Of a stretch of DNA of 37,911 bases, positions 8,948 through 26,080 are shown piece after piece. Source of the DNA: Acidobacteriota bacterium (GTDB lineage Bacteria > Acidobacteriota > Thermoanaerobaculia > Gp7-AA8). The notes under the pieces were generated by a model. The model was given only the letters and a program-made list of their open reading frames with translations, was not told the DNA's origin and did not search any database. A program made the position numbers and the translations under genes. Numbering within the stretch: the stretch's first letter is position 1; each line of letters begins with the position of its first letter. Location: NCBI GenBank assembly GCA_021325515.1, contig JAJPHC010000056.1, positions 1 to 37,911 of the forward strand, given 5' to 3'.

Positions 8948-8975
8948 CGGGGAGAGGGGCACGGGGTGAGGGGCC
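8928..8975. repeat. GC-rich hairpin repeat, family A copy 1
   Basis: The core CCCCGC...GCGGGGAGAGGGG is followed by CACGGGGTGAGGGGCC. The same element recurs at 10189-10235 (opposite orientation) and 24925-24973 (same orientation). The mfd stop codon sits inside this copy. It probably forms the 3' hairpin of the mfd transcript. Confidence 0.88.
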
Positions 8976-15912: not shown

Positions 15913-16574
15913 CGCGTCTCAAAGAGGCGCCGGCAACCGGCGCGGTGCTGCTCTTCATCGCCATCGTCTTCTTCTCCGAGTGCCTCCTCGGTCCGCCGAT
16001 CGGAGCTCACTGGTACGACATCCCGATTGCGCCCATCAACATGAGCAGCCTCGTGATGATCGGTTCGATCACCGGCGAGGTCCTCGCCGCTCATCAGTAC
16101 TGGCGGCTGCTGTCCGCGATGTTCCTGCACGGAAGTCTCGTGCACTGGTTTCTCAATTCGCTCGCGCTCTTTCAACTCGGATCGCTGTACGAATCGGAGT
16201 TCGGTTCGCGCCGCTTCGCGCTCGTCTATCTCCTCACCGGAATCTGCGCGTCGCTCACGAGCGCGATCCATTTGCCGGAGGACGGCGCGTCGGTCGGCGC
16301 GAGCGGCGCTGTGCTCGGCGTGCTCGGCGCACTGATCTTCGCGATCCGCCGCTCGCATCTGCACGAGCAGCGCTGGGCGCGGTTCGTCATGTATCAGTTG
16401 ATGTTCTGGGCCGCCGTCAACGTGACGCTGCCGCTGTTCATCCCGGCGATCGACGAGTGGGCCCACACCGCCGGCGTCATCTCCGGGCTCCTCCTCGGGC
16501 TCGTGCTGCCGCACGGACAGCGCCCGCCGCCGGCGAGAACACGAACGGTGGATGTGGTGCCCTTCGAAGGTTGA
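15909..16574 (+). CDS. Rhomboid family intramembrane serine protease
   Basis: 221 residues, about six transmembrane segments. YWRLLSAMFLHGS and HWFLNSLALFQLG carry the family H-x-x-x-N stretch. The catalytic dyad is Ser132 (GASGAVLG) with His186 (WAHTAGVISG). Rhomboids cut membrane proteins within the lipid bilayer. The substrate is unknown. It is translationally coupled to the upstream SDR. A long decamer repeat starts at its stop codon. Confidence 0.93.
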   Translation: MTRLKEAPATGAVLLFIAIVFFSECLLGPPIGAHWYDIPIAPINMSSLVMIGSITGEVLAAHQYWRLLSAMFLHGSLVHWFLNSLALFQLGSLYESEFGSRRFALVYLLTGICASLTSAIHLPEDGASVGASGAVLGVLGALIFAIRRSHLHEQRWARFVMYQLMFWAAVNVTLPLFIPAIDEWAHTAGVISGLLLGLVLPHGQRPPPARTRTVDVVPFEG

Positions 16575-16732
16575 TGGGAGGATGGGACGGATGGGAGGAT
16601 GGGACGGATAGGACGGATGGGACCGATAGGACCTATGGGACCTATGGGTAGAGCGCCAGGATAGTTGAAAGGAATTTCTCATCTTTTCCACCCATCGGTC
16701 CCATCCGTCCCATCCGTCCCATTCGTCCCATC
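16573..16732. repeat. Decamer tandem repeats forming a long inverted repeat
   Basis: Tandem units of TGGGACGGAT type run from 16573 to about 16649. The complementary ATCCGTCCCA units run from 16690 to 16732, with a 40-nt non-repetitive spacer. The element fills the space between the convergent rhomboid and radical SAM genes and begins inside the rhomboid stop codon. It could form a very stable hairpin and act as a bidirectional terminator. Confidence 0.9.
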
Positions 16733-16736
16733 ATCA

Positions 16737-18347
16737 TCAATACAAAAACTCGAGCTTCTCCGCCGACGCCACGCGTTCCGGCACGATCGACATCAGCATG
16801 TGCCAGTTGATCGTCTTCCGGTCGAACGCCGGCATCCGGAGGATGGACAGCAGTTCCTGATGCTCCGGATGCGACGGGGAAGCGACATCCGTCCGTGCGA
16901 ACGTCGCCTCGTCATACGCGCCGTAGTTCACGACGCGCTGAAACCAGATCGAATCCGCGGAGAGGGAATCGGCCAGGTCGATGAAGGCCGGAATCTCGCG
17001 GAAGTTCGCCTGCTGCACGACGAAGTTCATCTGCAGCGACGCGATGCGATTCGAGCGCCGCATGCCGGAGAGATACTCCAGATTCTTCATCAGCACCGCC
17101 CACTTCCCCGGCCGCCGCAACTGCTCGTACGTCTCCGCGCGCGCAGCATCCACGGAGACCGACAGCACGCCGATCATCTCCGGGAGGTTTGGAAACTCCT
17201 GCCATCGATGCGGTGTCATGAGCAATCCATTCGTGATCAGGTAGACGCGGAGCCCGGGATACTCGGCGCGGTTGAGCGTGCGGAGAATGGAACGGAAATG
17301 CTTGCTGGCAAACGCTTCGCCGCCGCCGGTGATGTACGTGTGCCCCTGCACTCGGCGCAGCATCGGGAGAATCACCTTCTTCGATGCGCCGTCGTAAAGA
17401 TCGATCTCATCCGCTTTTGCAGAGACGATCTCGCTCCGGCACGACGGGCAGGCAAGATTGCACGTCGGCTCATGATTGAGCTCGAACATGAGCGGTGCCT
17501 CGCCGAGCCGCGTCACACGCTCGTCGATGTACCTCCGCAGCGCAGGCGTCGTGACCTCTTCCTTCAACGGCAGCTTGCGCGCCGTGATCATCGAGCATTG
17601 CGTGCGGCTGCAGTACCTGTAGTCGCCATCGAGAATCGAGCGGCGAATCTCCTGCGCCGCCTCGGAGTTCCAGATCGCGTCCGGCGACTCCGCCTCGGTG
17701 ATGTTGCCGATGGAGTACGGGACCCAGGCCGGGCAGGCGCAGGCGAAAGTCTCGCCGCGAAACCCGGTGGACATGTGCGTGAACGGCATGTGGCAGAAGC
17801 GCCGCGAGAGGTCGTAGTCCTGCGGCTGCGCGCGCTCGAGCAGTTGCTGCGCCGTCTGGCAGACGGCCTGCACGCGCAGGGCACGGCGAATGTGCTCCAC
17901 CGCGCGCTCGCTCTCGCCGCGGTCGAGCAGCAGTTCGGCCATCACCAGCAGCCCGGTACGGGAATCGGGCTCGTGCTCGAGGATGAGCGAAGCGAGATGC
18001 AGCGGATCGTTAGACAGATACTCGATCATCGCGCGGACGATGCGCACCTGAACCGAGATATCGACATAGGAACGGAGCGGCTGCCCTGCCACGTGAATGC
18101 TTCCGTCGTCGATCTGCTGCGCGCCGTCGAGCAGCGCCCGCACGAGCGGCCGGCCCTCGAGCCTCATCGCATTTCGCGTATGCACGGCAATCGCCGCCAG
18201 CATCTCGGCACGGTTCTCGGCGACGAGATCGCCGAATGCCGAGCGCAGCCACTGTTGCGCCGGCCGCCGGGCGAACGTCACGCGGTCGAGAAAATTCGAA
18301 GCACGCAGACGCACGCGCTTCAGCTTCCTGAGATGGGCTCTCCGCAC
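16737..18347 (-). CDS. Radical SAM protein with N-terminal TPR-like and SPASM-like regions
   Basis: 536 residues from GTG. Residues 100-175 look like helical repeats (LLVMAELLLDRGESERAVEHI). A cysteine-rich module follows at 185-251 (C185, C203, C205, C246, C251, with SIGNI and IWNSEAAQEIRRSIL), resembling a SPASM auxiliary iron-sulphur domain. The radical SAM core comes after it: CNLACPSC (C296, C300, C303) and the SAM-binding TGGGE (340-344). SPASM domains normally follow the core, so this order is reversed. The reaction is unknown. It diverges from the glycosyltransferase/methyltransferase operon with 25 nt between start codons, suggesting it acts in the same pathway. Confidence 0.88.
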   Translation of the reverse strand: MRRAHLRKLKRVRLRASNFLDRVTFARRPAQQWLRSAFGDLVAENRAEMLAAIAVHTRNAMRLEGRPLVRALLDGAQQIDDGSIHVAGQPLRSYVDISVQVRIVRAMIEYLSNDPLHLASLILEHEPDSRTGLLVMAELLLDRGESERAVEHIRRALRVQAVCQTAQQLLERAQPQDYDLSRRFCHMPFTHMSTGFRGETFACACPAWVPYSIGNITEAESPDAIWNSEAAQEIRRSILDGDYRYCSRTQCSMITARKLPLKEEVTTPALRRYIDERVTRLGEAPLMFELNHEPTCNLACPSCRSEIVSAKADEIDLYDGASKKVILPMLRRVQGHTYITGGGEAFASKHFRSILRTLNRAEYPGLRVYLITNGLLMTPHRWQEFPNLPEMIGVLSVSVDAARAETYEQLRRPGKWAVLMKNLEYLSGMRRSNRIASLQMNFVVQQANFREIPAFIDLADSLSADSIWFQRVVNYGAYDEATFARTDVASPSHPEHQELLSILRMPAFDRKTINWHMLMSIVPERVASAEKLEFLY

Positions 18348-18356
18348 GAGCGGCCG

Positions 18357-18366
18357 ATGTTACAGT
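18357..18366. promoter_or_regulatory. Overlapping divergent -10-like elements
   Basis: On the plus strand TACAGT (18361-18366) lies 6 nt before the GTG of the methyltransferase-glycosyltransferase. On the minus strand TAACAT (complement of 18357-18362) lies 9 nt before the GTG of the radical SAM gene. Neither has a recognisable -35. The overlap would make the two promoters mutually exclusive or jointly controlled. Confidence 0.4.
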
Positions 18367-18372
18367 AATCCG

Positions 18373-21162
18373 GTGAGCGAGACCGCAACGGCCGAGGCCG
18401 CGATGAAGGCGGCAGGAGGCTGGGCGCCGCACGATTACACGCCCCCCGGTCTCGCCGTCGTCCGCCCCGACGCGTGCTTCCCTCACATGCAGCCGGGCGA
18501 TCCGCTTCGTCATCCCTGGAAGTATCTCCGCCGCGACGTGCCGCACATCTGGTACGCGGATCAGCGCTATCCGCTGATGGGATTCCTGAATCGCGATGAG
18601 GCGGCGCTGCTGCACAACCTCGCGCTGCAGTTCGCAGGAAAGCGCGCGCTGGAGATCGGCAGTTGGCTCGGCTGGTCGACCGCTCATCTCGCGCTCGCCG
18701 GCGTGACGCTCGACGTCATCGACCCGGCGCACGAAGATCCGGCGATCCACGCTTCGGTCGAAGACTCGCTCTCGCGCTGCGGCGTGCGCGAGCGCGTGCG
18801 GCTCCATCGCGGCCGCAGTCCCGAATCGATCGCGCAGCTCGGGCAGACGTGGAGCCTCTTCTTCATCGATGGCGATCACGAAGCACCTTCGCCGCTGCGC
18901 GATACGATCGCCGCACTCCCGCACGCGACTCACGATTGCGGCTTCGTCTTTCACGACCTCGCCGCTCCTGCCGTTGCCGATGCGCTGCGCTTCCTGCGCG
19001 GCAAGGGCTTTCACACGATCGTCTATCAGACGGCGCAGATCATGGGCTTCGCATGGCGCGGCAACGTCGTGCCCGTTCCGCACACGCCCGATCCGGAAGT
19101 CGCGTGGCAGATCCCCGAGCATCTCAGCGATCTGTGCGGAAGACCCGTCCGCACGGCGGCCTACAAAGAACTGAGACATCAGAACTACAGCGGTGAACCG
19201 TCGCGTCCCGCGGTGTGCATCGTCACGAGTGAGCTCATCGGCCCTTTCAAGAACGGCGGCGTCGGGACGGCGACCACAGGGCTCGCGGAATGCCTTGCGG
19301 CGGACGGGCTGCCGGTGACGGTGCTCTACACCGGCACGATCTGGCAGCCGCACATCGATCTCACTCCCTGGATCCGGCATTACGCAGCGCGCGGTATCGA
19401 GCTCGAGTCGCTGTCGCTCGACGACATGAAGCAGCTCTCGGGTCCGTTGCGCGAATGCGGCTTCGGCACACCGTGGCTCGTCTATCGCTGGCTCGCCGCG
19501 CGCCATTTCGACGTCATCCATTTCAACGATTGCTGCGGCGAAGGAAGCGCAGCCCTCGCCGCAAAACGAACAGGCCTCGCGTTCCGAGACTCGCTGCTCG
19601 TCGTCGGTCTTCACAGCCCGTCGCGCTGGGTCTTCGAGCTCAATCACACGCTGCCGTCGAGCACGACGGCGGCCGCGTTCGACTTCAGCGAGCGCGTGAG
19701 CACCGCGGCCGCGGATGTCCTCTGGAGTCCGAGCCGCTATCTGCTCGACTGGATCGCCGATCACGGCTTCGCGTTACCCGATCACACATTCGTGCAGCAG
19801 TATGTGATGCCCTCCGCACCACGGCCGGCCGCGCGCACGGGCAACGGCATCCGCGAGATCGTCTTCTTCGGCCGCCTCGAGGAGAGAAAGGGACTGCGCA
19901 CGTTCTGCAATGCCATCGACTCGTTGCAGGACGACCTCGCGCGCCACAACGTCACGATCACCTTCCTCGGCAAGCCGGAGACGTGCGCAGGAATGCCGAG
20001 CCTCGATTACATCGCGAAGCGTGCGAAGTCGTGGCGCGCTCCCCTCAAAACGCTCACCAGTCTCGGCCAGCCCGATGCACTCGCGTATCTTCGCGACGGC
20101 GGCCGGCTCGCCGTCATGCCCTCGCCCGCCGACAACTCGCCCTGCACGATCTACGAGGCGCTGGCGGAACAGGTGCCGTTCCTCGCCGCGCGCAGCGGCG
20201 GCATTCCCGAGCTGATCGCCGAAGGCGATCGCGATCACGTGCTGTTCGAGCCATCGCTTGAAGGACTCGCGAATGCGTTACAGCGTGCGATGGCGAGCGG
20301 AGTCCGCACCGCAAATCCCGCGGTGCCGAGGGATGTGAATCTCGAAAGCTGGCGCGCACTGCACGCACATTGGAAATCGTTTCTCCCGCCGCAGCAGCCG
20401 CGCTCCGCGTCGATGACGTTCGCCGCGATCATCGAGCACCGCGCCGGCGATCTGCTGGGGCGGACGCTCAACTCGCTCTGTGCACTGCCGAACTACTACC
20501 GAACCGTCGTTCTCAATCGAAGCGGAGAGGCGTTGCCCGACGATCCGATCGATCTCCAGCGCATGGATCACGACGCGATCCTCGCGCGCCTCATGGCGAT
20601 CACCGAAGACGCGATTCTCTTCATCCACTCCGGCGTGACCGTGGACTCCGAAGCTCTCGATGCGATGCTGCGCGGATTGCGGCAATCGGATCTCGACGGA
20701 CTCGTCCCCGCCGCCCGCAGCGGATCGCGCACCGTCCCTTCGCTCGGCGGCAGCGCACCGTTTTCACTGCAGGAAGGAGCGACGTTCACGGGCGCGATGC
20801 TGGTCCGTCGCGAGCTGCTGCTGCGCGCGATCGAAGGACGCGCGCTCCTGCTGGATGCACCATTCCTCGGCCTCACCGACTTTTGCGTCACGCGCAGCGA
20901 CACGATCTGGCCGTATCCGGAGCCTGTGCTGCGCAGGCAGCGGGCGCCGTTCGAGCTGCGCTGCGCGACTCCCGGGCGCATCGCCGTCTACGACGAGCGG
21001 TCGCGCGACGATCGCTTCTACATGCTCGCATCCGGTTTCCGTTCCGCCGGCGGCAATCGCCCCTCGACTCTTCGCCGCGCCGCGCTCATGGCCACCGATT
21101 TTGGTCTCGTACAATTCGTTCGCGCAGCATCGTGGTTTCGCCGCCGATTCCTGATGCGATAA
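18373..21162 (+). CDS. Three-domain fusion: methyltransferase, GT4 and GT2-like glycosyltransferase
   Basis: 929 residues from GTG 18373. (1) About 60-270: class I SAM methyltransferase of the Methyltransf_24 type, with EIGSWLGWST (from 94) and FFIDGDH (163-169). (2) About 278-670: GT4 glycosyltransferase in GT-B fold, with acceptor-side NGGVGTATTG, FGRLEERKG and the donor-binding stretch SPADNSPCTIYEALAEQ (from 584). (3) About 681-929: a GT2-like segment (LGRTLNSLCALPNYYRTVV; ILFIHSGVTVDSEAL) in which a clear DxD motif is not seen, so it may be degenerate. It probably adds and methylates sugars on a surface glycan or secreted glycoside. First gene of a five-gene operon. Confidence 0.88.
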   Translation: MSETATAEAAMKAAGGWAPHDYTPPGLAVVRPDACFPHMQPGDPLRHPWKYLRRDVPHIWYADQRYPLMGFLNRDEAALLHNLALQFAGKRALEIGSWLGWSTAHLALAGVTLDVIDPAHEDPAIHASVEDSLSRCGVRERVRLHRGRSPESIAQLGQTWSLFFIDGDHEAPSPLRDTIAALPHATHDCGFVFHDLAAPAVADALRFLRGKGFHTIVYQTAQIMGFAWRGNVVPVPHTPDPEVAWQIPEHLSDLCGRPVRTAAYKELRHQNYSGEPSRPAVCIVTSELIGPFKNGGVGTATTGLAECLAADGLPVTVLYTGTIWQPHIDLTPWIRHYAARGIELESLSLDDMKQLSGPLRECGFGTPWLVYRWLAARHFDVIHFNDCCGEGSAALAAKRTGLAFRDSLLVVGLHSPSRWVFELNHTLPSSTTAAAFDFSERVSTAAADVLWSPSRYLLDWIADHGFALPDHTFVQQYVMPSAPRPAARTGNGIREIVFFGRLEERKGLRTFCNAIDSLQDDLARHNVTITFLGKPETCAGMPSLDYIAKRAKSWRAPLKTLTSLGQPDALAYLRDGGRLAVMPSPADNSPCTIYEALAEQVPFLAARSGGIPELIAEGDRDHVLFEPSLEGLANALQRAMASGVRTANPAVPRDVNLESWRALHAHWKSFLPPQQPRSASMTFAAIIEHRAGDLLGRTLNSLCALPNYYRTVVLNRSGEALPDDPIDLQRMDHDAILARLMAITEDAILFIHSGVTVDSEALDAMLRGLRQSDLDGLVPAARSGSRTVPSLGGSAPFSLQEGATFTGAMLVRRELLLRAIEGRALLLDAPFLGLTDFCVTRSDTIWPYPEPVLRRQRAPFELRCATPGRIAVYDERSRDDRFYMLASGFRSAGGNRPSTLRRAALMATDFGLVQFVRAASWFRRRFLMR

Positions 21163-21185
21163 TTCCGCGCGTTCCATTGCCCGCC

Positions 21186-22268
21186 ATGACTCCACCGACC
21201 ATGTATGTGACGTTCTCCCTTCACGGCGGAGGTGCGGAACGCCTCCTCACTAACATCACGCTGCAGCAGCGGCACAGCAGAGAGATCACGGTCGTCGTGC
21301 TGCGGCCGGATGGAGTATTCCGGCCGGCGCTCGAAGAGGCGGGCATCCGCGTGGTCGATCTCGGGATGCACGGCTATCACGACGTGTTCTCCGGAATCGT
21401 GCGGCTCGCGCGATGGATCCGCCGCATCCGGCCCGGCGTCGTCCACGCGTGGGATTACTTCGCGAACATCCTCGCCTTCTTCGCCTGCAAGCTCACGCGC
21501 TCGGAGGCAAGACTCTTCTGGGGACTGTACGGCACTGGCTTCGGCCCGCAGAAGACCAGGCTCCCCTTTAGCGCGACCGTGCTGCTGAACATTCTTCTGT
21601 CGCGCCACGTCGACGGTGTGAGCTACAACGCGGTCGAGGCACGCGACTACCACCACGCCCTCGGATTTCGGGAGCGGCGTTCGATCATCATCTCGAACTC
21701 GATCGACGCGGAGGCATTCCGTCACGACGTCCGGCATCGCGAGCGCATCCGCCGCGACCTCGGAATCGGATCGGAGGAAATCGTGGTGGCGATCGTGGCG
21801 CGAGTCGATCCGATGAAAGACTGGCCGTCGATGCTCGCGGCCGTTCGCGGACTGCCCGTCATCACGCTTGCGATCGGACAGGGCACCGAGACCTTGCCGC
21901 AGCAGGACGGACTCCACACCCTCGGATGGCACGACGACGTGGCGAGTGTGCTCAGCGCCGCGGATATTTTTCTTCTCGGCTCCGCGTACGGTGAAGGGAC
22001 ATCGCTCGCGCTCGGTGAAGCGATGCTGTGCGGAGTTGCCTGCGTGGTCACCGGCGTCGGGGACAACGGGACGCTCGTCGGAGACTGCGGCATCGTCGTA
22101 CCGCCGCGCGACGTCAGTGCGATGCGCGAAGCGATCGCCGAGCTCGCGGGCGACGCGCAGCGGCGCGAGTCGCTGAGCCGCTGCGCGCGGGCGCGAGCGG
22201 CGCTGATCACCCTTTACGACGAGCGCATGCACCGGCTTCACGATCTCAGCCTCGCAGAGGCATCATGA
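21186..22268 (+). CDS. GT4-family glycosyltransferase
   Basis: 360 residues from ATG 21186 (ATG 21201 also possible). The GT-B fold is shown by LHGGGAERLL near the N-terminus, ISNSIDAEAF, VARVDPMKDW and a donor-binding stretch GEGTSLALGEAMLCG (269-283) with E270 and E278 as the E-x7-E pair. It transfers a sugar from a nucleotide donor, probably on the cytoplasmic face of the membrane. It starts 23 nt after the preceding gene and overlaps the next one as ATGA. Confidence 0.92.
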   Translation: MTPPTMYVTFSLHGGGAERLLTNITLQQRHSREITVVVLRPDGVFRPALEEAGIRVVDLGMHGYHDVFSGIVRLARWIRRIRPGVVHAWDYFANILAFFACKLTRSEARLFWGLYGTGFGPQKTRLPFSATVLLNILLSRHVDGVSYNAVEARDYHHALGFRERRSIIISNSIDAEAFRHDVRHRERIRRDLGIGSEEIVVAIVARVDPMKDWPSMLAAVRGLPVITLAIGQGTETLPQQDGLHTLGWHDDVASVLSAADIFLLGSAYGEGTSLALGEAMLCGVACVVTGVGDNGTLVGDCGIVVPPRDVSAMREAIAELAGDAQRRESLSRCARARAALITLYDERMHRLHDLSLAEAS

Positions 22269-23665
22269 GATCTCCCGTCCACTTTCAGTCGCTCGAGCAG
22301 GAGCTCGAACCGGTTGCGAAATATCTGACCGGCCACCTGCTGAATGCCGGCTGCGGCACGCGCGACATCGAAGAATTTCTGCGCAGCCACGGAACGAAGG
22401 AGATCACGCGCTTCGACATCGCATCGGCCGATCCGCGCGTCATCACCGGCGAGATCGAGTCGATGCCGTTCGGCGATGCCAGCTTCGATTCGGTGCTCTG
22501 CAATGCGGTGCTCGAGCATGTCGTCGACGCCGAGCGCGGAATCCGCGAGCTCGCGCGTGTCGTGCGCAAAGGCGGCTATCTCGTCGTCACCGTTCCCTTC
22601 CTGCAGCCGTACCATCCGTCGCCCGGCGACTTCCGCCGCTACACGGCGGACGGGCTCGCGCAGCTCGGGCGCAACGCCGGGCTCGAGCTCATCGAGATGT
22701 TGCCGGTGCACACGCTCGCCCAGACCATCGGCTGGATCACGTGGGAGCATGGGAAGGAAGCGTGGGGCCGCATCCGGAGAGCGGCCGCGTGGATCCTGAT
22801 CGCGATCGCGACACGCCTCTTCAGCCGCACCGATCGTCGCGTCGTGCACAACGCGAACACGTATCAGGCCGTCTTCCGCCGGCCGTCCTCGAGCGAGGCG
22901 GACATCATCGGAACATCGTGGCGGCATCAGGCCGTACCGGCCGCATGCGCGAACGTGCCAACGATGCTCGTGCCTGACGAGCTGCGGCTGCTGCATCACC
23001 TGACGGCGAACGTCTATCGCGGCGAAGGCGCCATCATCGACGCCGGCTGCTTCCTCGGCGGCTCGACGATCGCGCTCGCGGACGGCCTGCGGCGCAACCC
23101 GCGCGGGCTGAGGGGCCCCATCCACTCCTACGACCGCTTCGAAGTCGAGGAGTACATGCGCGGCACCTTCTTTCCCGCCGGAACGGAAACCGGCGCGAGC
23201 TTCCGCGCACAGTACGAGAACAACATCGCACCCTGGGCCAGCCTCGTCGAAGTCCACGCCGGCGACATCACGCAGCAACCGTGGAACGGCGGCCCGATCG
23301 AGATCCTCTTCATCGATCTCGCGAAGCACTGGCGCGTCTGCGACTGGATCACCTGGCAGTTCTTCCCGCATCTCATTCCAGGGCGCTCGCTCGTGGTGCA
23401 ACAGGATTACCTCTATCACCACTGGGTCGGCTGGCTGCACGTGACGATGGAGCTCTACGCCGACTGCTTCGAGTACGTCTGCGATACGGAAGTGAACTCC
23501 GTCGTGTTCCTCAACACGAAGAAGGTGCCGGTGCGCGAGCGCAGCGTCGACAGCCTCTCGCGCGAGGAGCGCGCGTCGCTCGCCGACCGCGCCGCCGCCC
23601 GTTTCGAAGGTGCGAAGCGCGAGCTGATCCTCGCCGCTAAGGCGCACTTCCTGGAGATGGCATGA
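22265..23665 (+). CDS. Double class I SAM methyltransferase
   Basis: 466 residues with two Rossmann methyltransferase domains. The N-terminal one (about 20-205) is Methyltransf_11-like: LLNAGCGTRDIEEF, MPFGDASFDSVLCNAVLEHV, RVVRKGGYLVV. The C-terminal one (about 236-420) starts with IIDAGCFLGGST (257-268), carries LFIDLAKHW in place of the common FIDGDH, and ends in VVFLNTKKVP. Both SAM-binding glycine loops look intact. It overlaps its neighbours as ATGA on both sides. The likely role is methylation at two positions of the glycan made by this operon. Confidence 0.85.
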   Translation: MRSPVHFQSLEQELEPVAKYLTGHLLNAGCGTRDIEEFLRSHGTKEITRFDIASADPRVITGEIESMPFGDASFDSVLCNAVLEHVVDAERGIRELARVVRKGGYLVVTVPFLQPYHPSPGDFRRYTADGLAQLGRNAGLELIEMLPVHTLAQTIGWITWEHGKEAWGRIRRAAAWILIAIATRLFSRTDRRVVHNANTYQAVFRRPSSSEADIIGTSWRHQAVPAACANVPTMLVPDELRLLHHLTANVYRGEGAIIDAGCFLGGSTIALADGLRRNPRGLRGPIHSYDRFEVEEYMRGTFFPAGTETGASFRAQYENNIAPWASLVEVHAGDITQQPWNGGPIEILFIDLAKHWRVCDWITWQFFPHLIPGRSLVVQQDYLYHHWVGWLHVTMELYADCFEYVCDTEVNSVVFLNTKKVPVRERSVDSLSREERASLADRAAARFEGAKRELILAAKAHFLEMA

Positions 23666-24258
23666 CCGCGATTCCGTATGACCTGCTGATGAAGATTCAG
23701 CAGGGGACGATGGCCAACGAATACCGCGGCGTGCCGATGCTGAAGAATCCCTTCGACATGGCGCTCTACTCCCTCCTGCTCGACCGCGTGAAGCCGCGCA
23801 CGCTCATCGAAATCGGTTCGCATCGCGGCGGAAGCGCGATGTGGTTCGCCGATCAGCAGCCGGCGATGCAGGTGCTGTCGATCGACCTCCAGCCTCCGGA
23901 CCTGGTGCATCGAAACGTTAGATTCATCAAGGGCGATGCCCGCCGTCTCGCGCTGGAGACGGAATCGATCGCGCGGCCGCTGCTTGTCGTCGAAGACTCG
24001 GATCATCAGGCCGCCACGACCGCGGCCGTCCTCGACTTCTTCGACCCGTGCCTGAGGCCGGGAGAGTACATCGTGATCGAGGACGGAATCCTCACCGCGA
24101 TGCGCGTCGCCGATTCGTATGGCGGCGGACCGCTGCGTGCGATCCACGAGTTCCTCGAGCGCAGCGGCGGACGCTATGAGATCGACCGTTCCCTCTGCGA
24201 CTATTTCGGGCCGAACGTGACATGGAACGTCGACGGCTATCTGCGACGGACCGCATGA
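23662..24258 (+). CDS. CmcI-family (cephalosporin hydroxylase-like) methyltransferase
   Basis: 198 residues, matching the short CmcI family. It shows LKNPFDMALYSLLL, the SAM loop IEIGSHRGGSAMWFAD (49-64), SIDLQPP, VVEDSDH (109-115) and YIVIEDG (136-142). CmcI was named for cephamycin biosynthesis, but many members are sugar O-methyltransferases in glycolipid or polysaccharide loci. The neighbours favour a sugar substrate. ATGA overlaps join it to both neighbouring genes. Confidence 0.88.
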   Translation: MTAIPYDLLMKIQQGTMANEYRGVPMLKNPFDMALYSLLLDRVKPRTLIEIGSHRGGSAMWFADQQPAMQVLSIDLQPPDLVHRNVRFIKGDARRLALETESIARPLLVVEDSDHQAATTAAVLDFFDPCLRPGEYIVIEDGILTAMRVADSYGGGPLRAIHEFLERSGGRYEIDRSLCDYFGPNVTWNVDGYLRRTA

Positions 24259-24920
24259 GCCACATCTTCGACCTCGAACCGGAATTCCTCGAGCTCTACG
24301 AGAAGTGCCGCACGGAGACGATGACGTCGCTGGAGCGGATGTATGCGCTCTACAACGCGACGCGCTACATCGTCGCGAACGGAATCGCCGGCGACTTCGT
24401 CGAATGCGGCGTCTGGCGCGGCGGTTCCGTCATGCTCATCGCGCTTACGCTCGCGCGCCTCGGCGACACCGGCAGGACCCTCTGGCTCTACGACACCTTC
24501 GCCGGGATGACGCCGCCGCAGGAGATCGACGTGCAGACGATGAGCGGGCGGCCGGCGCGCGCGGTTCTCGATGAGGATGCGGCGAATGGCCCGTTTCGAG
24601 GCATCGCGGCGCGCGAGATCGCCGAGAAGAATCTGCGCGGTTATCCAAACGTGCGTTTCATCGAAGGCGATGTGCTGTCCACGATTCCGTCGTTCGCACC
24701 GCCGGCAATCGCGCTGCTGCGCCTCGACACCGACTGGTACGCATCCACACGCCACGAGCTCGAACATCTCTACCCGCGCGTCACCGCCGGCGGCGTGCTG
24801 ATCATCGACGACTACGGCTACTGGAGCGGTGCGCGCAAGGCGACCGACGAGTACTTCGGCGGGAACGGCCCGCTGCTCCACCGCATCGATTACACAGGGC
24901 GTATCTGCGTAAAGCAATGA
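24255..24920 (+). CDS. TylF/MycF-family O-methyltransferase
   Basis: 221 residues from ATG 24255. The family hallmark is clear: IVANGIAGDFVECGVWRGGS (39-58), FIEGDVLSTIP, LLRLDTDWYAST (154-165) and LIIDDYGYWSG. Asp158, Asp160, Asp185 and Asp186 are candidates for the Mg2+ site that activates a sugar hydroxyl. In macrolide pathways this family methylates deoxysugars; similar enzymes decorate surface polysaccharides. Last gene of the operon, followed directly by a hairpin repeat. Confidence 0.93.
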   Translation: MSHIFDLEPEFLELYEKCRTETMTSLERMYALYNATRYIVANGIAGDFVECGVWRGGSVMLIALTLARLGDTGRTLWLYDTFAGMTPPQEIDVQTMSGRPARAVLDEDAANGPFRGIAAREIAEKNLRGYPNVRFIEGDVLSTIPSFAPPAIALLRLDTDWYASTRHELEHLYPRVTAGGVLIIDDYGYWSGARKATDEYFGGNGPLLHRIDYTGRICVKQ

Positions 24921-24924
24921 GCCC

Positions 24925-24973
24925 CGTCCCCCTCGCCCCGCGCAGCGGGGAGAGGGGCCAGGGGTGAGGGGCC
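24925..24973. repeat. GC-rich hairpin repeat, family A copy 3
   Basis: Nearly identical to the copy at 8928-8975: CCCCGCGCAGCGGGGAGAGGGG followed by CCAGGGGTGAGGGGCC. It starts 5 nt after the tylF-like stop and ends 6 nt before the stop of the convergent methyltransferase gene, a position suited to bidirectional termination. Confidence 0.9.
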
Positions 24974-24979
24974 GAAGAT

Positions 24980-26080
24980 TCAGCGCACTCTGCGCGCAAT
25001 CAACCGCAAATCCTGAGGGGCGAACAGCCGGTCATTGACCGCATGCACCACGCGCTGCACCTCGGGCGGATCGCTCTCCAGAATCGGGATCCTCGTCCCT
25101 TCCGGAAACGCGTGGACCGCACGCACCTCATCGATGGCGAAGCCATGCTCGCGCGCGAGCAGCACGAGCGCGGCCGGATGGCGCGGCGCGAGATGCGTCG
25201 GATCGCGCCAGAACTCGGAGGCGGAGACGAGAAGCGATTCGGCGTTGGGCGTCTCGAGGATGAGCAGGCCGCCATCGCGCAGCACGCGCGCCGACTCGCG
25301 GAAGAACGCGAAGAGGATGTCGACGGGAAGGTGCTCGACGACGTGCAGCGCGGCGACGGAGCCGATCGACGCGTCAGCGAGCGAAGCAAAACACTCCGGA
25401 ATCGCCGCGACGGTGGCCGCGAGTCCGCGCGCGGCGAGATCCGCAACCGAGCGCTCGTTGGTGTCGAAGCCGCGCGCGCCGGGAACGAGCGAGAGCAACT
25501 CCCCGCGCCCGCAACCGACATCGACCAGCGGCGAATGCTCGCGGGCCAGCGCCGCGTAATGCGCGACGGAATCCCGAACCTCGGCTTCCGATCCGCGCAG
25601 GGAATCCTCGAGCCGCCGATAGACAAAATCCGAAGACGATCCTGCTGCCTGCAGACTGCTGCCCGCTGGCTGGTTCAGGAGATCGCGGATCCGCACCGAC
25701 AGCGTCTCGATCTTCTGATCCAGCGCAGCGATGAGGGCGTCGTTGCGCATCGCCGCGACGGGAATCAGCGCGCGCGTCCGGCCGAGATCGCCGGCCAGCG
25801 CCTCATCTCCTTGTCTAACGTCGCGCTGCAGCGTCTCGACATCGGTGCGCGCATCGCGACGTGCGGCCTCGATCTCGCGCCGGAAGTCGTCGATCAGATC
25901 GAGCACGGCGAGATTGAAATCCCGCTGGCGATCGGCGTCCGGCTGCGTGACGCGGCGGACGAGGCGGAGCAGCCAGGACTTCCAGCTCCGCGAAGAGCGG
26001 TAGCGGCGGTCGTTGCGCCAGATGTCGCGCCACGCCGCCGCTCCCGCTGGAGGGGAATCGACGAATTGCTCGTCGCTCAT
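24980..26080 (-). CDS. Class I SAM methyltransferase with N-terminal coiled coil
   Basis: 366 residues. Residues about 50-135 are charged and helical (coiled-coil-like; DLIDDFRREIEAARRD). The C-terminal domain has FVYRRLEDSLRGS, the SAM loop VDVGCGRGELL (186-196), ALHVVEHL and GGLLILETPN. This layout recalls methyltransferases linked to O-antigen chain length control, where a coiled coil measures or anchors the chain; here that is inference from layout and neighbours. The stretch QPAGSSLQAAGSSS (137-150) is a low-complexity linker. TACACT lies 7 nt before the ATG, inside the end of rplI, so the gene can have its own start of transcription. Confidence 0.85.
   Translation of the reverse strand: MSDEQFVDSPPAGAAAWRDIWRNDRRYRSSRSWKSWLLRLVRRVTQPDADRQRDFNLAVLDLIDDFRREIEAARRDARTDVETLQRDVRQGDEALAGDLGRTRALIPVAAMRNDALIAALDQKIETLSVRIRDLLNQPAGSSLQAAGSSSDFVYRRLEDSLRGSEAEVRDSVAHYAALAREHSPLVDVGCGRGELLSLVPGARGFDTNERSVADLAARGLAATVAAIPECFASLADASIGSVAALHVVEHLPVDILFAFFRESARVLRDGGLLILETPNAESLLVSASEFWRDPTHLAPRHPAALVLLAREHGFAIDEVRAVHAFPEGTRIPILESDPPEVQRVVHAVNDRLFAPQDLRLIARRVR

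Follow-up and report, generated by a model that had tools for sequence, protein, structure and literature searches.

An apparently mobile radical SAM, glycosyltransferase and methyltransferase module related to ABC-type glycan assembly loci in an Acidobacteriota bacterium

What could a radical SAM (rSAM) protein encoded next to glycosyltransferases (GTs) and a group of methyltransferases (MTases) be making, and which of these genes belong together? The locus lies in the window, the whole stretch of DNA analysed here, which is an entire contig of 37,911 bp (G000:C21). A preliminary description had counted one rSAM protein, three GT folds and six MTase folds, and this inventory was borne out by Pfam, one of the GTs being recognised from a structural model. 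The features are as follows, with "relatives" denoting the four other genomes that carry a like cassette.

16573–16732, no strand: two inverted 9-bp repeat arrays, at the left edge of the inserted segment
16737–18347, minus strand: radical SAM protein (Pfam; orthologue in four of four relatives)
18373–21162, plus strand: MTase-GT4-GT-A fusion (Pfam; alignment of five orthologues; fold of the C-terminal domain)
21186–22268, plus strand: GT4-family glycosyltransferase, GT4b (Pfam; orthologues adjoin Wzt in three relatives)
22265–23665, plus strand: tandem (double) methyltransferase (Pfam, Methyltransf_11 and Methyltransf_24-like)
23662–24258, plus strand: CmcI/rhamnosyl O-methyltransferase-like MTase (PF04989, RMNT_CmcI)
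24255–24920, plus strand: TylF/MycF/NovP-type sugar O-methyltransferase (PF05711; PDB alignment)
24980–26080, minus strand: coiled-coil MTase (Methyltransf_23), outside the module, at the right boundary of the insertion

The rSAM gene is divergent from a block of five genes, with which the coiled-coil MTase gene converges. The ATGA overlaps reported earlier were confirmed at junctions 22265, 23662 and 24255, which join the GT4b gene and the three genes after it. All six module frames are intact, with ambiguous starts for the rSAM gene (GTG at 18347, 18314 or 18281) and the fusion gene (GTG at 18373 or ATG at 18403).

The limits of the module were derived from the rplI-flanking loci of 12 same-family genomes, compared with the window genes. 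The order BCAT, SDR, rhomboid, coiled-coil MTase, rplI and a DUF2232-type gene is widely shared, the names coming partly from reading the sequences. The coiled-coil MTase stands beside rplI in all 12 loci, with 57–64% identity, although the copy in L062 is partial and inverted. The preliminary description had included this protein in the set; as a core gene and fixed neighbour of rplI, it was rejected as part of the module. Locus L062, in which this gene lies close to the end of a contig and is inverted relative to rplI, was excluded from the gap count. In the 11 same-family loci showing both the rhomboid and the coiled-coil MTase gene, the module is absent between them, and the gap measures 7–731 bp in ten loci and 4,448 bp in G011. 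The short gaps in relatives, together with the G011 insert, delimit the module to 16737–24920, at a site that has received at least one other insert. The frames in the G011 gap (L063:9400-13800, about 4.4 kb) read like sulfate-assimilation genes. This gap is a possible insertion hotspot.

On the best reading, the module is an accessory, horizontally mobile segment of 8.2 kb. A compositionally foreign segment was ruled out, since the GC3 of the module (0.80–0.86) matches that of its flanks. No integrase was recognised among the seven window proteins scanned for families, no tRNA was present in the window, and no exact direct repeat of at least 10 bp was shared by the two flanks examined. Comparison with PHROGs returned nothing useful.

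The left edge of the module is marked by a 9-bp unit, GGATGGGAC, forming arrays at 16573–16641 and 16691–16732 in opposite orientations, where the rhomboid and rSAM genes converge. A 17-mer of this repeat occurs at 259 sites genome-wide (at most one mismatch) against none for the reversed control, is absent as an exact match from the 12 same-family loci searched, and the repeat forms inverted pairs at several places in the genome. It is a genome-wide dispersed repeat, perhaps special to this lineage. Similar intergenic repeats with a 14-bp unit (GGGGAGAGGGGC...) lie at 8948–8974 and at 24947–24973, the latter in the gap that separates the TylF-type gene from the convergent coiled-coil MTase gene.

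The distribution of the module was examined at three scales. Long relatives of the rSAM protein were found only in G017 among 60 related genomes. In a sample of 396 genomes of the phylum, which is prone to miss rare cassettes, the full-strength rSAM, the MTase-GT4 fusion and the double MTase occurred only in the window, with two weaker matches, two GT4-only matches and five partial matches elsewhere, respectively. A pattern scan of an 84,980-species genome collection with two short peptide patterns revealed, among the best 80 of 88 loci, the cassette in at least four other genomes: L069, a metagenome-assembled genome (MAG) labelled Betaproteobacteria; L070, a gp4 Acidobacteria MAG; L071, which corresponds to contig G017:C86 of an acidobacterial MAG; and L072, an Acidobacteriota MAG. 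Because the scan relied on two patterns and on the best 80 of 88 loci, the resulting five cassette genomes are a lower bound. The record itself assigns L069 to Betaproteobacteria, a label that may reflect mis-binning, since rplI was not found in this MAG.

The rSAM, the MTase-GT4-GT-A fusion and the double MTase are each encoded in four of the four relatives, GT4b, Wzm with Wzt, and a second rSAM (rSAM2) each in three, the CmcI-type MTase in two and the TylF-type MTase in one. With the window included, the counts over five genomes are five for rSAM1, the fusion and the double MTase, four for GT4b, three for Wzm/Wzt, rSAM2 and the CmcI-type MTase, and two for the TylF-type MTase, for which the L069 sequence is only 33% identical. 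Gene orientation varies among the five genomes while content is constant. A single open frame of 1,511 residues encodes both the fusion and the double MTase in L069. The ends of the G017 contigs C122, C86 and C183 overlap by at least 141 bp and the contigs, once joined, give the order rSAM1-rSAM2-Wzm-fusion-Wzt-GT4-double MTase; a frame after this cassette reads ketosynthase-like from its first residues. The earlier proposal that these genes form a set is supported, since the orthologues were clustered in all four other genomes with the rSAM clade and were not singly scattered.

Compared with L070 and G017, the window copy is missing Wzm, Wzt and rSAM2, as would be expected of a decayed remnant left inactive by their loss. 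The six intact frames, codon-position GC like that of the flanks, retained SAM-binding and Fe-S motifs and preserved ATGA coupling make this explanation very improbable.

The exporter genes of the relatives are the main clue to function. Wzt_C (PF14524) was detected in the cassette Wzt of G017 (61.1 bits), L070 and L072; no Wzt was present in the L069 cassette, and the window contig gave no Wzt_C match. The preliminary description had recognised no characterised pathway in this gene set. The idea of a set unlike anything known is not supported, as three of four relatives place the genes with Wzm/Wzt, that is, with ABC-transporter-dependent polysaccharide export. In the genome of the window, three PF14524 matches lie on other contigs, two of them over the cut-off. 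By tblastn, these Wzt proteins share 32–42% identity with the cassette Wzt, against 55–75% among cassettes. This excludes close orthology, but they could act in trans.

We consider it fairly probable that the module builds and O-methylates a glycan destined for ABC-type export, with the copy in the window lacking an exporter of its own. On the inner side of the membrane, the two GT4 enzymes, of which one is fused to an MTase and to a GT-A domain that is degenerate, would lengthen or cap a lipid-linked glycan. Its sugars would receive O-methyl groups from the Methyltransf_24, Methyltransf_11 plus Methyltransf_24, CmcI-type and TylF-type enzymes, and the rSAM enzyme would oxidise, epimerise or deoxygenate a sugar by radical chemistry. 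The mature chain would then leave through Wzm/Wzt, encoded in the cassette in three relatives and presumably supplied here from elsewhere in the genome. A methylated glycan is thus the product suggested by the enzyme families. The earlier idea of a module modifying or assembling a glycan is retained in this form, without the coiled-coil MTase and without the status of an orphan set. Several points count against this explanation: the module contains no identified sugar-nucleotide gene, Wzt_C is missing from the window and from the L069 cassette, the Wzt proteins encoded elsewhere in the genome are distant from those of the cassettes, no terminator with a coiled-coil ruler was found in the cassette, more distant rSAM homologues do not generally lie in glycan loci, and the TylF and CmcI families have substrates other than glycans as well.

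Wzm/Wzt exporters also serve other glycans, and no cassette gene specifies the final acceptor. A protein-glycosylation or S-layer glycan system, in which the glycan goes to protein rather than to the lipid A core, would fit both points, but a non-systematic inspection of the cassettes revealed neither an oligosaccharyltransferase nor a protein acceptor, and we regard this destination as unlikely.

The predicted GT activities rest on two GT4 domains over the Pfam cut-off and one GT-A fold. The fusion protein comprises a Methyltransf_24 domain (residues 93–195), a GT4 domain (residues ~295–642) and a GT-A-like domain (residues 680–929). The C-terminal 250 residues have no Pfam match and were modelled as a GT-A fold with a mean pLDDT of only 61.9 (residues 1–100 being better); this low-confidence model gave Foldseek matches to E 2.2e-6 and VIA Z scores of at most 14.1 (168–189 residues, rmsd 3.1–4.3). 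The DxD metal motif is typical, though not universal, in GT2/GT-A enzymes. It is absent from this domain, where H-S/A-G is found in five of five orthologues at the position inferred from the model. This domain may be a binding module and not a transferase. In G114 (L164:7935-11282), a frame of about 1,116 residues whose N-terminus reads sulfotransferase-like contains a relative (about 43%) of the GT4 domain.

In the rSAM protein, the Radical_SAM domain (PF04055, residues 291–429) follows a SPASM-type domain (PF13186, residues 185–251), both over the cut-off. The alignment behind the structural model and the tree comprised 50 sequences, namely the eight rSAMs of the cassettes plus a hand-picked 42 of the 76 distant homologues. 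Seven cysteines are invariant in these homologues, namely the auxiliary Cys185, Cys203, Cys246 and Cys251 and the core Cys296, Cys300 and Cys303; Cys205 is nearly invariant. The core motif C296-x3-C300-x2-C303 is the canonical CxxxCxxC which, with the auxiliary cysteines, places the protein in the radical SAM superfamily with SPASM/twitch. Its best NCBIfam match, NF033640 (N_Twi_rSAM), has a likewise N-terminal Fe-S region ahead of the rSAM core, but the score of 87.2 bits lies below the cut-off of 170 and the window protein carries an extra N-terminal part, helical and TPR-like in the AlphaFold model (pLDDT 92.3, pTM 0.88). The closest folds were DesII (Z 16.6, 235 residues, 3.5 Å), viperin and NifB (about 15.6) and BlsE (14.8). 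These near-tied generic matches, alike for many rSAM families, do not fix the chemistry of the enzyme. The top PDB sequence matches of its profile include BtrN and cytosylglucuronate decarboxylase.

In the 50-sequence tree, the five cassette rSAM1 sequences form a clade of their own (100/99) holding only cassette genomes, sister (93/82) to the clade of the three rSAM2 sequences (100/100). Between L069 and L070, the rSAMs are 85–87% identical against 61–69% for the fusion and MTase proteins, which suggests, if the L069 bin is right, that the rSAM pair moved alone between distant hosts and ended in a like cassette.

The wider family was surveyed through the 76 distant rSAM loci among the best 80 of 88 pattern matches; L098 and L147, with no called frame at the match, were dropped, leaving 74 frames. 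Among the matches listed, five of the 74 frames carry carbohydrate-type fusions, with a sulfotransferase in three and a GT and a hexapeptide transferase in one each (for example L076, L080 and L116). Neighbouring genes were sampled among the same matches, 140 of 249 near and 140 of 331 far. GT2 genes were rare (four of the 140 near genes sampled), indicating no general glycan association, and further rSAM genes amounted to 10 of 140 near against 2 of 140 far genes. Glycan links among the matches listed are limited to these five fusions and to the single loci L110 and L116. Locus L110 encodes Wzm-like and Wzt-like frames (from sequence reading and tblastn), a sulfotransferase-rSAM fusion and a CmcI-type MTase. 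The fusions to carbohydrate-type domains and the L110 context make sugar tailoring the most economical role, and the rSAM protein, judged from such sequence comparisons, is likely a sugar-tailoring radical enzyme. Locus L116 (6362–13183), from a Rhodospirillales MAG, has a frame of 2,274 residues with GT2, GT4, SPASM-region, B12-binding and radical SAM domains, adjoining Wzt-like and Wzm-like genes.

A motif-I-like SAM-binding stretch was found in all six MTase domains, the coiled-coil one counted. The double MTase, whose orthologues in the four relatives are 64–68% identical, combines a Methyltransf_11 domain over the Pfam cut-off with a Methyltransf_24 domain under it. On a Nostoc plasmid, a relative of its C-terminal domain lies inside a GT protein neighbouring an ABC permease, an ATPase and a sulfotransferase. 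The CmcI-like MTase matched PF04989 (80.8 bits), with CmcI as its nearest solved structure, and scored 66 bits against the rhamnosyl O-methyltransferase equivalog NF045824, below the threshold of 400. The TylF-type MTase belongs to PF05711 (137.8 bits against a gathering cut-off of 23); its LRLD...IIDDY Asp motifs, which we take to be the metal site, align to 4cdz and, like the family, are shared with the sugar O-methyltransferases MycF, NovP and TylF.

The nearest solved relatives of the last two module genes include CmcI, NovP and MycF, and antibiotics and macrolides are also among the substrates of the TylF and CmcI families. Together with the rSAM matches to BtrN and cytosylglucuronate decarboxylase in PDB sequence and to DesII, viperin and BlsE in fold, these similarities would suit a small-molecule pathway in which the GTs glycosylate an aglycone made elsewhere, tailored by the TylF/CmcI-type and rSAM enzymes. 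We hold such a pathway to be improbable, given that Wzm/Wzt lie inside the cassette in three of four relatives, that the cassette genes scanned showed no PKS/NRPS core, the ketosynthase-like frame after the G017 cassette notwithstanding, and that sulfotransferase and GT fusions occur among rSAM relatives.

Among described systems, the ABC-dependent O-polysaccharide loci of E. coli O9a (WbdD) and Klebsiella O3/O7, as described in PMC3482155 and PMC11231755, share a Wzm/Wzt exporter with a C-terminal carbohydrate-binding-type domain (present in three cassette relatives), multi-domain GT and MTase proteins, and methyl decoration. In such systems, the carbohydrate-binding module of Wzt recognises a terminal modification, which is methyl in some cases (PMC11231755; WbdD, PMC3482155). 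Unlike these loci, the window copy lacks an exporter, the cassette showed no recognisable coiled-coil terminator, ruler or kinase (read without a coiled-coil predictor), the MTases are of TylF, CmcI and Methyltransf_24 type, and rSAM paralogues are added. A Brachyspira plasmid block (PMC4267127) places a predicted rSAM beside a GT and rhamnose-type epimerases, but its abstract mentions neither MTases nor an exporter. In a search that covered subscription journals thinly, we found no radical enzyme characterised as modifying a bacterial polysaccharide while it is being built, and no paper on this gene combination.

The set is a real and conserved cassette, and apparently a mobile and undescribed variant of the ABC-type glycan assembly locus. 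Paralogous rSAM pairs occur in three of the cassettes. More tentatively, the TPR/twitch-rSAM proteins might be a new polysaccharide-tailoring class working within membrane GT/sulfotransferase/MTase complexes and marking the chain for export through the carbohydrate-binding domain of Wzt, with the window module moving without its exporter. The conserved cassette predicts which genes belong together, and its combination of rSAM paralogues, MTase-GT fusions and Wzm/Wzt offers a concrete, clonable system for radical polysaccharide chemistry.
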